Below, piece after piece: positions 15,600 through 32,492 of a stretch of DNA of 32,500 nucleotides (its first letter is position 1; each line of letters opens with the position of its first letter). Under the pieces are notes generated by a model. The model did not search any database. It worked only from the letters and a program-made list of their open reading frames with translations, and was not told the DNA's origin. This DNA is from Pelagibacteraceae bacterium AG-410-N23 (lineage in GTDB: Bacteria > Pseudomonadota > Alphaproteobacteria > Pelagibacterales > Pelagibacteraceae), in contig QCKW01000002.1 in assembly GCA_003215055.1 (NCBI GenBank), positions 1 through 32,500 on the forward strand, given 5' to 3'. The position numbers and the translations under genes are program-made.

Positions 15600-16211
15600 A
15601 TGCAAAATATAAATGAGATTGATGAATTAATTAAATTAATTTCAAAACTCCCTGGTTTAGGACCTAAATCAGCTAAACGAATTGTCTTAAAACTAATAAA
15701 TAATCAAGAGGAGCTTGTTAAACCTATGGCAAGTGCACTAGCTCAAGTTTATAAAAATATAATAAGATGTAAATTGTGTGGTTCTTTAAAATCAAATTCT
15801 CAAGCATGTCAAAATTGTGGGGCTCTTAAAGAAAAATTTAATAAAATATGTGTTGTAGAGGATATAGCTGATCAATGGTCAATCCAAAGTTCAAATATAT
15901 TTCAGGGATATTTTCACATTCTGGGTGGAACAATATCTTCTGTCGGTCAAAGAAAAGAGGACTTATTAATCAATTCTTTGGTAAATAGAGTGAATAAAGA
16001 GAAAATTGATGAAGTTATACTAGCTTGTAGCAACACCGTAGAAGGTCAAACAACTGCATATTACATTAAGGATAGTTTAAAAAATTCGAAAGTGCGTGTT
16101 ACAAAGCTGGCACAAGGATTACCAGTCGGTGGGGAAATAGAAAGCTTAGATGATGGAACTTTATTTTCAGCTTTTAAAAATAGATCGAAATTGAATTCTA
16201 ATTATGATTAG
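15600..16211 (+). CDS. recR: Recombination protein RecR
   Basis: RecR works with RecO (and RecF) to load RecA on gapped DNA. From ATG 15600 the protein is 203 residues, the standard length. It has the helix-hairpin-helix LPGLGPKSAKRI, a four-cysteine zinc finger CKLC...CQNC (about 57-72), and a Toprim domain starting ICVVED with YFHILGG. The C-terminal segment TKLAQGLPVGGEIE is also typical. The open frame extends to a GTG at 15558 inside ebfC, but the MQNINEIDELIKLISKLPG start is the family one. Five bases separate it from ebfC. Its last 14 bases overlap the convergent glcB end. Confidence 0.94.
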   Translation: MQNINEIDELIKLISKLPGLGPKSAKRIVLKLINNQEELVKPMASALAQVYKNIIRCKLCGSLKSNSQACQNCGALKEKFNKICVVEDIADQWSIQSSNIFQGYFHILGGTISSVGQRKEDLLINSLVNRVNKEKIDEVILACSNTVEGQTTAYYIKDSLKNSKVRVTKLAQGLPVGGEIESLDDGTLFSAFKNRSKLNSNYD

Positions 16212-18357
16212 CTTTTTTTTTCAGTCTATTTAAATGAAGAAGAGGTTCTGTATATCCTGAAGGTTGTTCTTTACCTTTAAAAATAAGATCACATGCAGCC
16301 TTAAAAGCTATGGAATTTTCAAAATCATCACTCATTTTAATATATTTTTGATCATCTTCATTTTGTTTATCAACGACTTTAGCCATTTCTTTCATTATTT
16401 CTTTAACTTGAATTTCGGTTGTAATCCCGTGATGTAACCAATTAGCAATATGTTGGGATGAGATTCTTAGTGTTGCTCTATCTTCCATTAATCCAATATT
16501 ATTTATATCTGGAACTTTTGAACACCCAATTCCTTGATCAATCCATCTAACCACATATCCTAATAAAGTTTGTGCAGAATTTGAAATTTCTGTATTTATT
16601 TCATCAACAGACCAATTAGGTCTATCTGCTATTGGGATTGTTAAAAGATCATTTAACTTAGATGGTGTTCTAGAGACTAGTTTTTTTTGAACATCAAAAA
16701 CATTTATTTCATGATAATGCAAAGCATGCAACGATGCTGCTGTTGGGGATGGAACCCAAGCACAATTAGCTCCTGCCTCAAGGTGTTGTATTTTTTCTTC
16801 TAACATTTTTTTCATTTCATCGGGAGCTGCCCACATTCCTTTACCGATTTGTGCTTTACCAGAAAAACCACATTTTAAACCTAAATCTACATTATTATTT
16901 TCATAAGCCTGTATCCATTTAGATGATTTCATATCACCCTTTTTAATCATTGGTCCAGCTTGCATTGATGTATGCATTTCATCACCAGTACGATCTAAAA
17001 AGCCTGTATTTTGAAAAACTATTCGTTTCGAAAGAGCTCTAATACACTCTTTAAGATTTGCTGAGGTTCTTCTTTCTTCATCCATTAATCCAACTTTTAT
17101 TGTGTTTGATTGGAGTTCAAGCACTTTCTCAACATTAGTAAAAATTAAATCTGTAAATTTACATTCATCTGGTCCGTGCATTTTGGGTTTAACAATATAA
17201 ATAGAACCACTTCTTGAATTTTTTTTCTTTTTTAAATCATGGAGTGCAGCTGCTGAGGTAATAAATGCATCCATAATTCCTTCAGGTACCTCGCTACCAT
17301 CTTTTAAGAGAATTGATGAATTAGTCATTAGATGTCCAACATTCCTAATTAATAGTAAGCTCCTTCCATGTAATTTTAAACCCTTTCCCTCTTTTGAAAT
17401 ATAACTTCTATCAGGATTAAGTTTTCTTTCTAAATTTTTACCATTTTTTTCGAATTGAATCTTTAAATCACCTTTCATTAAGCCCAACCAATTTCTATAA
17501 CATAGAATTTTATCTTCAGCATCGACAGCCGCAACACTATCTTCATTATCACAAATTGTTGAAACTGCAGACTCAGCTATGACATCACTAATCCCAGCAA
17601 TATCGTGAGCTGCACTAAATGCTCTTGGGTTAATAATGATTTCAAAATGAAGATTATTATTTTTTAATATGATAGCTTCTGGTTTGTTTGCATCACCTCT
17701 GTGACCTATAAATTTTTCAGGATGTTTAAGTTTATATTCATAATCATCCTTAAAAATTACCAAATCTTTATTTACAACTTTTAGGGCAGCTATATTTTTC
17801 CAACTCGTTCCATTAATTGGAATATACTTATCAAAAAATTCTCTAACATATTTGATTACTTCTTGTCCACGATTGGGATCATATCTTTCACTTCCTCCCT
17901 CTTCAGACTCAATTATATTTGTTCCATAAAGACTGTCATATAAACTTACCCATCTTGCATTAGCTGCATTTAAGGCATATCTTGCATTCATAATGGGTAC
18001 AACTAATTGAGGACCAGCTATTTTAGCTATTTCATCATCAACATTTTTGGTCTCAATTTTGAAGTCGGGTCCCTCATCTTTTAAATAGTTTATTTTTTTT
18101 AAAAAATTTTTGTATTCATCTATATTAATTTTATTGCCTTTATTCTTAATATGCCAATCGTCAATTTTTTTTTGTATATCTTCTCGTATTTTAATTAATT
18201 CTCTATTTTTTGGTGCAAGTTCGTGAACAACTTTATCAAATCCTGACCAAAATTTTTCAGAAGTTATTCCAGTGTCTTTTAGCAATTCATTGTTCACAAA
18301 AGAAAATAACTCTTTTGTTACTTTGAGATTATTAACATTTTCGTATAATATTTTCAT
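16198..18357 (-). CDS. glcB: Malate synthase G
   Basis: Malate synthase condenses glyoxylate with acetyl-CoA to form malate, completing the glyoxylate shunt or glycolate/glycine use. From ATG 18357 (MKILYENVNNLKV) the protein is 719 residues, the standard size for isoform G. Seen in order: VVPIMNARYALNAANARW, IYIVKPKMHGPDE, MDEERRTSANLKE, TGFLDRTGDEMHTSMQAGP and GANCAWVPSPTAASLHALHYH. The open frame extends 12 codons further to 18393, but MKILYEN fits the expected N-terminus. It converges on recR with a 14-base overlap and is divergent from accA. In Candidatus Pelagibacter ubique a glycine riboswitch has been described before malate synthase; none is recognisable here. Confidence 0.95.
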   Translation of the reverse strand: MKILYENVNNLKVTKELFSFVNNELLKDTGITSEKFWSGFDKVVHELAPKNRELIKIREDIQKKIDDWHIKNKGNKINIDEYKNFLKKINYLKDEGPDFKIETKNVDDEIAKIAGPQLVVPIMNARYALNAANARWVSLYDSLYGTNIIESEEGGSERYDPNRGQEVIKYVREFFDKYIPINGTSWKNIAALKVVNKDLVIFKDDYEYKLKHPEKFIGHRGDANKPEAIILKNNNLHFEIIINPRAFSAAHDIAGISDVIAESAVSTICDNEDSVAAVDAEDKILCYRNWLGLMKGDLKIQFEKNGKNLERKLNPDRSYISKEGKGLKLHGRSLLLIRNVGHLMTNSSILLKDGSEVPEGIMDAFITSAAALHDLKKKKNSRSGSIYIVKPKMHGPDECKFTDLIFTNVEKVLELQSNTIKVGLMDEERRTSANLKECIRALSKRIVFQNTGFLDRTGDEMHTSMQAGPMIKKGDMKSSKWIQAYENNNVDLGLKCGFSGKAQIGKGMWAAPDEMKKMLEEKIQHLEAGANCAWVPSPTAASLHALHYHEINVFDVQKKLVSRTPSKLNDLLTIPIADRPNWSVDEINTEISNSAQTLLGYVVRWIDQGIGCSKVPDINNIGLMEDRATLRISSQHIANWLHHGITTEIQVKEIMKEMAKVVDKQNEDDQKYIKMSDDFENSIAFKAACDLIFKGKEQPSGYTEPLLHLNRLKKKANHN

Positions 18358-18395
18358 AATATCTTTTCTAAAACTCAAGTAAAATGAAGTCAAAT

Positions 18396-18426
18396 ATTAT
18401 ATAGAAGCATTGACATTTTGTTGTCA
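18396..18426 (-). promoter_or_regulatory. Candidate glcB promoter (-10 TATAAT)
   Basis: On the minus strand a perfect TATAAT (18401-18396) lies 39 bases before the glcB ATG, putting the start near 18389 with a leader of about 32 bases. The -35 is weak: the best text is TGACAA (18426-18421) at 19 bases. It shares DNA with the accA -35 and the inverted repeat at 18411-18426, so the two divergent promoters may interfere or share control. Confidence 0.35.
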
Positions 18427-18437
18427 TTTTTCATAAT
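18410..18437 (+). promoter_or_regulatory. accA promoter with consensus -35
   Basis: A perfect TTGACA (18410-18415), a 16-base spacer and CATAAT (18432-18437, one mismatch) precede accA. Transcription would begin near 18444, only about 14 bases before the ATG, so the leader is very short. This is one of the two best promoter matches in the window. Confidence 0.58.
18411..18426. repeat. Inverted repeat between divergent glcB and accA promoters
   Basis: TGACA (18411-18415), a 6-base spacer and TGTCA (18422-18426) form a perfect 5+5 inverted repeat in the 100-base gap. It overlaps the accA -35 and the region where a glcB -35 would sit. The size and position would suit a dimeric regulator, but five-base arms are short and half of the repeat is the -35 itself. 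Confidence 0.4.
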
Positions 18438-18457
18438 TATTTACTTATATTTTTTAA

Positions 18458-19555
18458 ATGAAAAACTATCTAAATTTCGAAACAGATATTAAAGATCTAG
18501 AGTTAGAATTAGAAAAACTTAAAGACCCTTTTAATCAAAGTGGACTTTCTGAAGTTGATACGCAAAAAATTTCTCAAATTCAAAATGAATTAGACAATAA
18601 GTTGGATACAATTTATTCTAATTTAGACCCATGGCAAACAACTATGGTTGCAAGACATGAGGACAGACCAAAATCAAAATTTTTTATAGAAAATCTTTTT
18701 GATGATTTTATTTCACTGTCTGGAGATAGACATTATGGAGAAGACAAATCTGTATTGTGTGGTTTCGCAAAATTTAATGGACAATCAGTTTTAGTTATTG
18801 GCCAAGAAAAAGGAGAGGATCTTGATAGTAGAATTGAAAGAAACTTTGGAATGATGAGACCTGAAGGATACAGAAAAACAATTAGACTGATGAATTTAGC
18901 TAATAAATTTAATATTCCTGTAATTTCATTTATTGATACACCAGGTGCTTACCCAGGAGTGGGAGCCGAAGAGAGAGGTCAAGCAGAGGCTATTGCTAAA
19001 TCAATTGAATGTTCAATGAAATTAACCGTTCCAACTTTAGCAATTATTATTGGTGAAGGAGGATCGGGAGGAGCTATTGCTCTTGCATCCTCAAGTAAAG
19101 TTATAATGTTAGAAAATGCAATTTATTCAGTTATATCTCCGGAGGGATGTGCAACAATTTTATGGAGAGATCCAAAAAAAATGTTGGATGCAGCTAAAGC
19201 TATGAAACTAACTGCTAGTGATCTTTTAGAGTTGGATATAATTGATGAAATTGTGAAAGAGCCTACCGGTGGTGCTCATAGAGATAAAAATTTGGTGCTT
19301 CAAAATGTAAGAGAGTCAATTGAAAAAAATCTAAATTATTTTAACGAAATGTCGCCTGATGAAATTTTTACTGATAGAAAAAATAAATTTTTAAAAGTCG
19401 GGAGAGGAAAGGGATTTATAGCTAATTTAGATACTTTGAGTGATTTAAAATCAGAAAAAATTAATTTATTTTACTTATTTAAATCAAATAAAAAAATTTT
19501 TGGTGGAATATTTTTAGCTATTTCTATTTTTTTACTATTTTTTTTATTCTTATAG
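18458..19555 (+). CDS. accA: Acetyl-CoA carboxylase carboxyltransferase subunit alpha, with hydrophobic C-terminal tail
   Basis: AccA and AccD together move the carboxyl group from biotin to acetyl-CoA, making malonyl-CoA for fatty acid synthesis. The body is standard: N-terminal coil (LELELEKLKD), LSGDRHYGEDK, IGQEKG, FIDTPGAYPGVGAEERGQAEAIA, IGEGGSGGAIAL and ISPEGCATILWRD. The protein is 365 residues against 319 in E. coli. The extra segment starts after about residue 318 and ends in a strongly hydrophobic stretch, FGGIFLAISIFLLFFLFL (348-365), preceded by lysines. That has the form of a tail anchor. The stop codon lies inside the convergent secA end (six-base overlap). The enzyme call is secure; the meaning of the tail is not. 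Confidence 0.94.
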   Translation: MKNYLNFETDIKDLELELEKLKDPFNQSGLSEVDTQKISQIQNELDNKLDTIYSNLDPWQTTMVARHEDRPKSKFFIENLFDDFISLSGDRHYGEDKSVLCGFAKFNGQSVLVIGQEKGEDLDSRIERNFGMMRPEGYRKTIRLMNLANKFNIPVISFIDTPGAYPGVGAEERGQAEAIAKSIECSMKLTVPTLAIIIGEGGSGGAIALASSSKVIMLENAIYSVISPEGCATILWRDPKKMLDAAKAMKLTASDLLELDIIDEIVKEPTGGAHRDKNLVLQNVRESIEKNLNYFNEMSPDEIFTDRKNKFLKVGRGKGFIANLDTLSDLKSEKINLFYLFKSNKKIFGGIFLAISIFLLFFLFL

Positions 19556-30994: not shown

Positions 30995-31017
30995 GAAGCT
31001 AGTGTGCGCCGTTTTTA

Positions 31018-32492
<1,475 letters not shown>

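Follow-up and report, generated by a model that had tools for sequence, protein, structure and literature searches.

Candidatus Pelagibacter glcB genes, which encode malate synthase, may be preceded by a tandem glycine riboswitch, as described in a metagenome report (PMC2211319) and as can be followed in the table of riboswitch loci available for strain HTCC1062 (PMC2704228). The DNA considered here is a stretch of 32,500 nucleotides from Pelagibacteraceae bacterium AG-410-N23 (contig QCKW01000002.1, positions 1 to 32,500), referred to throughout as the window. Its glcB gene had been noted, in a preliminary description, to be devoid of such an element. The locus raises the question of whether the riboswitch is truly missing, whether it was lost or never acquired, and what sets glcB expression in its place.

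The glcB-accA interval and the glycine riboswitches of the genome

The start codons of the divergent glcB and accA genes are separated by exactly 100 bp, the length given in the preliminary description, and the features of the interval are listed in Table 1. The glcB product scores 1061.2 bits against the curated equivalog model of malate synthase G (TIGR01345, cut-off 989.15), and most relatives have the glcB ATG at the same place. This ATG is preferred over the TTG at 18393, which would open a 731-aa ORF, because the TTG is the first triplet of the proposed -35 box.

Table 1. Features of the glcB-accA region (window coordinates)
Feature	Position	Strand	Basis or remark
glcB, malate synthase G, 719 aa, ATG at 18357	16198..18357	-	TIGR01345 and ATG of relatives
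accA, acetyl-CoA carboxylase carboxyltransferase subunit alpha, ATG at 18458	18458..19555	+	TIGR00513, 383.8 bits vs cut-off 319.3
Intergenic gap, 100 bp, divergent glcB/accA, without glycine riboswitch	18358..18457	.	
TTGACT, proposed glcB -35 box, 36 nt 5' of ATG	18388..18393	-	
TAGAAA, proposed glcB -10 box, weak (4/6 matches), spacer 17, 7 nt 5' of ATG	18365..18370	-	
Palindrome TGACA-N6-TGTCA	18411..18426	.	kept in most, not all, of the window clade
Promoter-like site for accA, TTGACA-16-CATAAT, 11/12 matches	18410..18437	+	simple promoter scan

With 100 bp shared by two divergent genes, a transcribed leader would hardly accommodate an aptamer, which measures about 75-95 nt, and none is present. 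At the gathering threshold, Rfam models run over the whole window identified no glycine aptamer, the sole listing being 16S rRNA (31017-32491). With permissive filters and E<=10, six weak matches were obtained between 17900 and 18800, none of them to a glycine aptamer; this range takes in 18300-18460, and the absence noted in the preliminary description is confirmed. A hidden or decayed aptamer in this leader is ruled out by the same search. Folding of the minus strand from 18340 to 18457 was not above that of shuffled sequences (z -0.49).

An aptamer of the RF00504 kind would have been detected, because the family was found elsewhere in the same genome. A tandem glycine riboswitch is located at C1:68145-68303, on the same strand as gcvT and just upstream of it, and both of its RF00504 aptamers are above the cut-off of 32 bits (63.3 and 45.2). 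The gcvP gene (C1:69829-72630) lies downstream. The missing copy is therefore the glcB one only, and the genome-wide RF00504 search proposed in the preliminary description gives a positive gcvT leader and a negative glcB leader. Among the RF00504 matches listed, a glycine riboswitch is found elsewhere in nine of the 15 window-clade genomes for which a glcB leader is available, and in none of the other six (G105, G149, G166, G209, G234, G242; G and L numbers denote genomes and loci, respectively). The best GcvT matches of those six do not exceed 30% identity, as for paralogs, and only G105 is more than 90% complete.

The survey was extended to 158 glcB loci, drawn from one family sample and one genus sample. 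Five of these (L046, L048, L111, L187, L188) have no accA in the stretch and no leader, and were excluded. In all the other 153 loci accA is divergent beside glcB, riboswitch present or absent; this is the outcome of the comparison of glcB neighbours in other SAR11 genomes that had been suggested earlier. Taken as counts and not as frequencies in the sea, since the samples are non-random by clade and some matches were left out, 42 of the 153 leaders carry a tandem riboswitch (a state assigned to leaders of at least 200 nt, alongside motif counts), one a single aptamer (L037), one a decayed tandem (L097), and 109 none. The idea that a riboswitch-less glcB is unusual finds no support in these counts: absence of the element is common among SAR11 relatives, and is not peculiar to the window genome.

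L111 breaks off within its leader, and the riboswitch match found there (G197) marks a carrier outside the counts. L172, L183 and L184, whose translation was disrupted by the estimated start, are outside the GlcB tree described below, and their leaders are counted as having none. The survey also leaves aside partial glcB matches (G175, G180, G186, G198, G200, G244), with riboswitch matches beside the glcB fragment in G175 and G198, as well as 48 of 79 full-length glcB matches lacking a locus in one search. RF00504 searches of more than 40 genomes were run with stricter filters, and their results hold among the matches listed. G026 presumably corresponds to HTCC1062, as its riboswitch matches are contained in intergenic regions listed in Table 1 of PMC2704228, and G035 to HTCC7211, its glcB ATG being at 62123, 162 bases above the 61961 tabulated in PMC5069720. 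A glcB riboswitch is present in both.

Proposed promoter placement and the glcB transcript

The transcription start site of HTCC7211 glcB has been mapped to the beginning of the riboswitch, 162 nt upstream of the start codon (PMC5069720). In L049 this site corresponds to the A in ATCGGGAGAG, which lies 35 nt past the first T of TTGACT. TTGAC is found 36-41 nt upstream of CGGGAGAGAC in 31 of the 42 tandem leaders, and is absent, as an exact match at that spacing, in the other 11. In three related leader types the box is followed at about the same distance by the gene itself: the ATG is 35-36 nt past the first T of TTGACT in 24/24 leaders (15 from the window clade, L035, and eight of the L038 type). 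As a measure of chance, TTGAC precedes only two of the 1041 ATGs on both strands of the window at -35/-36, and of these the one on the minus strand belongs to glcB. As the box-to-ATG distance nearly equals the 35 nt between box and mapped start in HTCC7211, the ATG falls at the expected transcription start. Several points, besides the 11 tandem leaders just mentioned, tell against this promoter. Matches to the -10 consensus in these leaders are 3 to 5 of 6, mostly 4. The TTGACT/TAGAAA promoter is not listed by the simple promoter scan, TAGAAA failing its last-base rule; the minus-strand sites listed instead are 18464-18436, 18383-18356, 18372-18345 and 18357-18328. TTGAC is not found at -35/-36 in L036, in the L044 and L052 types, or in L075, which is sister to the window clade. 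Since these other short riboswitch-less leaders are without it at that distance, a leaderless transcript is proposed only for the window clade, L035 and the L038 type.

On these grounds the window lineage probably lost the tandem riboswitch of glcB and kept the promoter, so that glcB would be transcribed as a leaderless, or nearly leaderless, glycine-blind mRNA, with sensing staying at gcvT. The ancestral leader would have borne a tandem glycine riboswitch, as in HTCC1062, HTCC7211 and relatives. A deletion would have removed the DNA from transcription start to start codon, sparing the TTGACT promoter and moving the start codon to about +1. Translation would then be leaderless, and glcB would no longer be switched by glycine at the RNA level; its expression, set by the promoter alone, might be constitutive, and glycine sensing would persist at gcvT. 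The leader of about 32 bases put forward in the preliminary description is one possible reading, and the comparison with the mapped start suggests about 0 nt instead. The same description supposed that glcB is regulated in a different way. This stands for the leader, which is unlike those of HTCC1062 and HTCC7211 and has no aptamer; that expression also differs is presumptive.

It is rather unlikely that the glcB promoter is located further upstream, at a TATAAT-like stretch near 18400 (minus strand), and gives an ordinary leader of about 30-40 nt. Such a stretch is present, its surroundings are conserved in the window clade, and the bases 5' of TTGACT are as conserved as those 3' of it, which makes room for a promoter there; a leader of this kind would likewise have no aptamer. 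The promoter scan does not list this site either, however, and the conserved TTGACT block and its fixed spacing from the ATG would be left unexplained.

Possible loss, gain and exchange of glcB leaders

Loss of the riboswitch, and not failure to gain it, is part of the favoured deletion scenario. A GlcB tree was built from 155 rows; over the 150 whose state is known, at least eight changes of riboswitch state are required. A crown group (98 rows) that started out with the riboswitch would have lost it five times, and the window clade is inside one of these losses. A history that starts without it at the crown base, and includes a few gains as well as some losses, is of comparable length according to our reading of the tree. 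Change counts cannot tell gain from loss, because the two histories are about equally short, and the gene-tree count is further weakened by the recombination that occurs at the locus (L035, see below).

In a tree of the riboswitch sequences the crown copies from glcB, 36 in number, group together to the exclusion of the gcvT type (support 91/89); this clade is recovered in 90% of 200 bootstrap trees, and a quick tree agrees. L037 is excluded from the riboswitch trees, and L097 and the gcvT copy of G010 also from the fuller one. When the deep glcB riboswitches (L146, L148, L160-L163) are included, a single clade of all 42 glcB rows is not rejected (p-AU 0.164), and neither is a tree in which the three glcB copies of g4 are each grouped with the gcvT copies of their own genomes (p-AU 0.326). 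A single origin of all glcB riboswitches of the family is thus neither shown nor rejected by the riboswitch tree.

Two leaders look like intermediates of riboswitch loss. The 258-nt leader of L097 (G173), which precedes an open glcB, hosts a decayed tandem riboswitch in which the aptamer core is altered; it scores 36.9 bits against RF03166, vs 59.8 to 84.9 for five intact tandem copies in the same search. G173 has three RF00504 matches at E<=0.001, with places known among the matches listed, and RF00504 may still recognize half of the copy at glcB. In L037 (G074) one aptamer is found before glcB (1420-1497, 55.5 bits with RF00504). It resembles a fusion of aptamer 1 (first half) and aptamer 2 (second half), such as recombination within the tandem pair would produce. 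Remnants were searched for in L075, L079, L098, L123, L137, L171, L172, L189, L126, L164, L064 and L180, and no glycine match was obtained at E<=10. On the sequence comparisons taken together, one old origin of the glcB riboswitch, followed by losses, fits best, and the window lineage is likely to have lost its copy.

The main alternative to loss is spread by recombination: the window lineage would never have had a glcB riboswitch, and other lineages would have gained a gcvT copy, disseminated by homologous recombination at accA-glcB. This appears unlikely. Riboswitch-less leaders are the majority (109/153), no remnant is found in L075, sister to the window clade, and one clear recombination at the locus is on record (L035), though in the riboswitch-losing direction. 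Yet crown glcB riboswitches are found on several branches around the window clade and still make up one sequence clade. The decayed and half-deleted copies suggest that loss is ongoing, and the TTGACT box is common to many riboswitch leaders and to the window clade.

The GlcB protein of L035 (G137) groups with those of riboswitch carriers, yet the leader is compact. This leader matches L063, a member of the window clade, at 88/95 positions, and L040, a riboswitch carrier, at 53/95. Codons 1-100 similarly match L063 (284/300) better than L040 (222/300), and the relation is inverted in codons 101-718 (1366/1854 vs 1644/1854), as is also seen in a sliding view. Judging from these identities, L035 acquired its compact leader, together with the beginning of glcB, by recombination. 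Tentatively, and with less than even chances, SAR11 could be regarded as having two control alleles of accA-glcB, one with the tandem riboswitch and the other compact, leaderless and glycine-blind, swapped by homologous recombination. If so, glycine control of the glyoxylate branch would toggle over evolution, leaving promoter box and enzyme untouched, and L035 would be one swap caught, its compact leader and first 100 codons coming from the window clade and the remainder from the riboswitch clade.

Replacement of the riboswitch by a transcription factor acting on the palindrome of Table 1 is very doubtful. The palindrome is located between both genes, without a mismatch in the window or in several relatives, but in L071 and L074 changes in one half-site are not mirrored in the other, and the wider accA-side sequence is also conserved, in a non-palindromic form, in riboswitch carriers. 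Besides, CATTTTRTTGYC is found three times in the genome vs one for the reversed control, and no regulon is indicated by these counts; a regulon built on the accA-side motif (the other two places are L231 and L232) was accordingly set aside as unsupported. A CATTTTATTGCC-like sequence before accA (18414-18425) is conserved in much of the genus, riboswitch or not. An assembly or binning error concealing a leader with a riboswitch has a negligible probability: the window genome is a 36-contig assembly, 79.8% complete, but 14 further window-clade genomes, whose compact leaders measure 92-101 bp and share the conserved blocks, already contradict this.

Glycine metabolism and relation to known systems

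Different SAR11 groups vary in glycine and serine prototrophy, and in LD12 malate synthase A takes the place of the G form, a change ascribed to homologous recombination (PMC10030771, PMC6018831). The suggestion, made in the preliminary description, that glycine/serine dependence may differ in the window lineage finds no support in the data: the gcvT riboswitch, gcvT and gcvP are all kept, and no serC is detected, as in neighbours. No serC (TIGR01365) was found in the window genome (79.8% complete) or in 13 other sampled window-clade genomes. In the genus sample a serC match was found in 10 of 121 genomes (none in 111), and in 0/19 of the high-quality ones. Phosphoglycerate dehydrogenase (PGDH) is above cut-off in 0/121 genus genomes, a poor test, as the model has 525 positions and serA-like proteins are short; the best serA-like match adjoins serC in nine of the 10 serC genomes. 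In this respect the window lineage shows no sign of being unlike its neighbours.

A gcvP match above 500 bits is found in 1/10 serC genomes vs 74/111 of the others (Fisher p 0.0007, kinship and incompleteness ignored), and in the genus sample there is a tendency towards mutual exclusion between serC and the glycine cleavage system. A tie between lack of gcvP and lack of the glcB riboswitch was also considered, and discarded as not significant (12/47 with gcvP vs 0/6 without, Fisher p 0.32; high-quality genomes, among the matches listed, the 12 being read off coordinates). Leaders of the L044 type correspond to a clade made of G127, G150, G151, G176, G189, G192, G193, G208, G230, G245 and G262. 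This clade has no RF00504 match and GcvT-like paralogs only; serC is not found, no substantial gcvP match is present in its ten genus-sample members, and no gcvP in G127.

A glcB riboswitch is present in G198, G211 and G228 despite a serC match (in G198 partial and below cut-off), and is therefore not restricted to serC-less genomes. In the window clade serC is undetected and the glcB riboswitch is absent as well. As mismatches of both types occur, the tie between glcB riboswitch and serC absence is not strict.

The literature, consulted in part, gave no description of a SAR11 glcB gene that is leaderless or devoid of a riboswitch, and Tripp et al. (2009) may mention such genes. At the accA-glcB locus nature provides similar promoters that either have or lack a riboswitch, by which the value of the switch to the cell becomes directly testable.

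Three known systems can be set beside the window locus. As in leaderless bacterial mRNAs, the start predicted from the placement of the proposed promoter box would be at the ATG; the window glcB is a candidate for that class, and its -10 box is weak. With the Ca. Pelagibacter loci in which glcB follows a tandem riboswitch (RF00504), the window has in common the gene and the divergent accA neighbour, and TTGAC lies at a similar upstream distance in 31/42 of their leaders; in contrast, the window has no RNA between the proposed transcription start and the ATG. The SAR11 tandem riboswitch of gcvT is present in the window's genome, above cut-off, before gcvT and gcvP, and controls, unlike the glcB riboswitch, the glycine cleavage genes.
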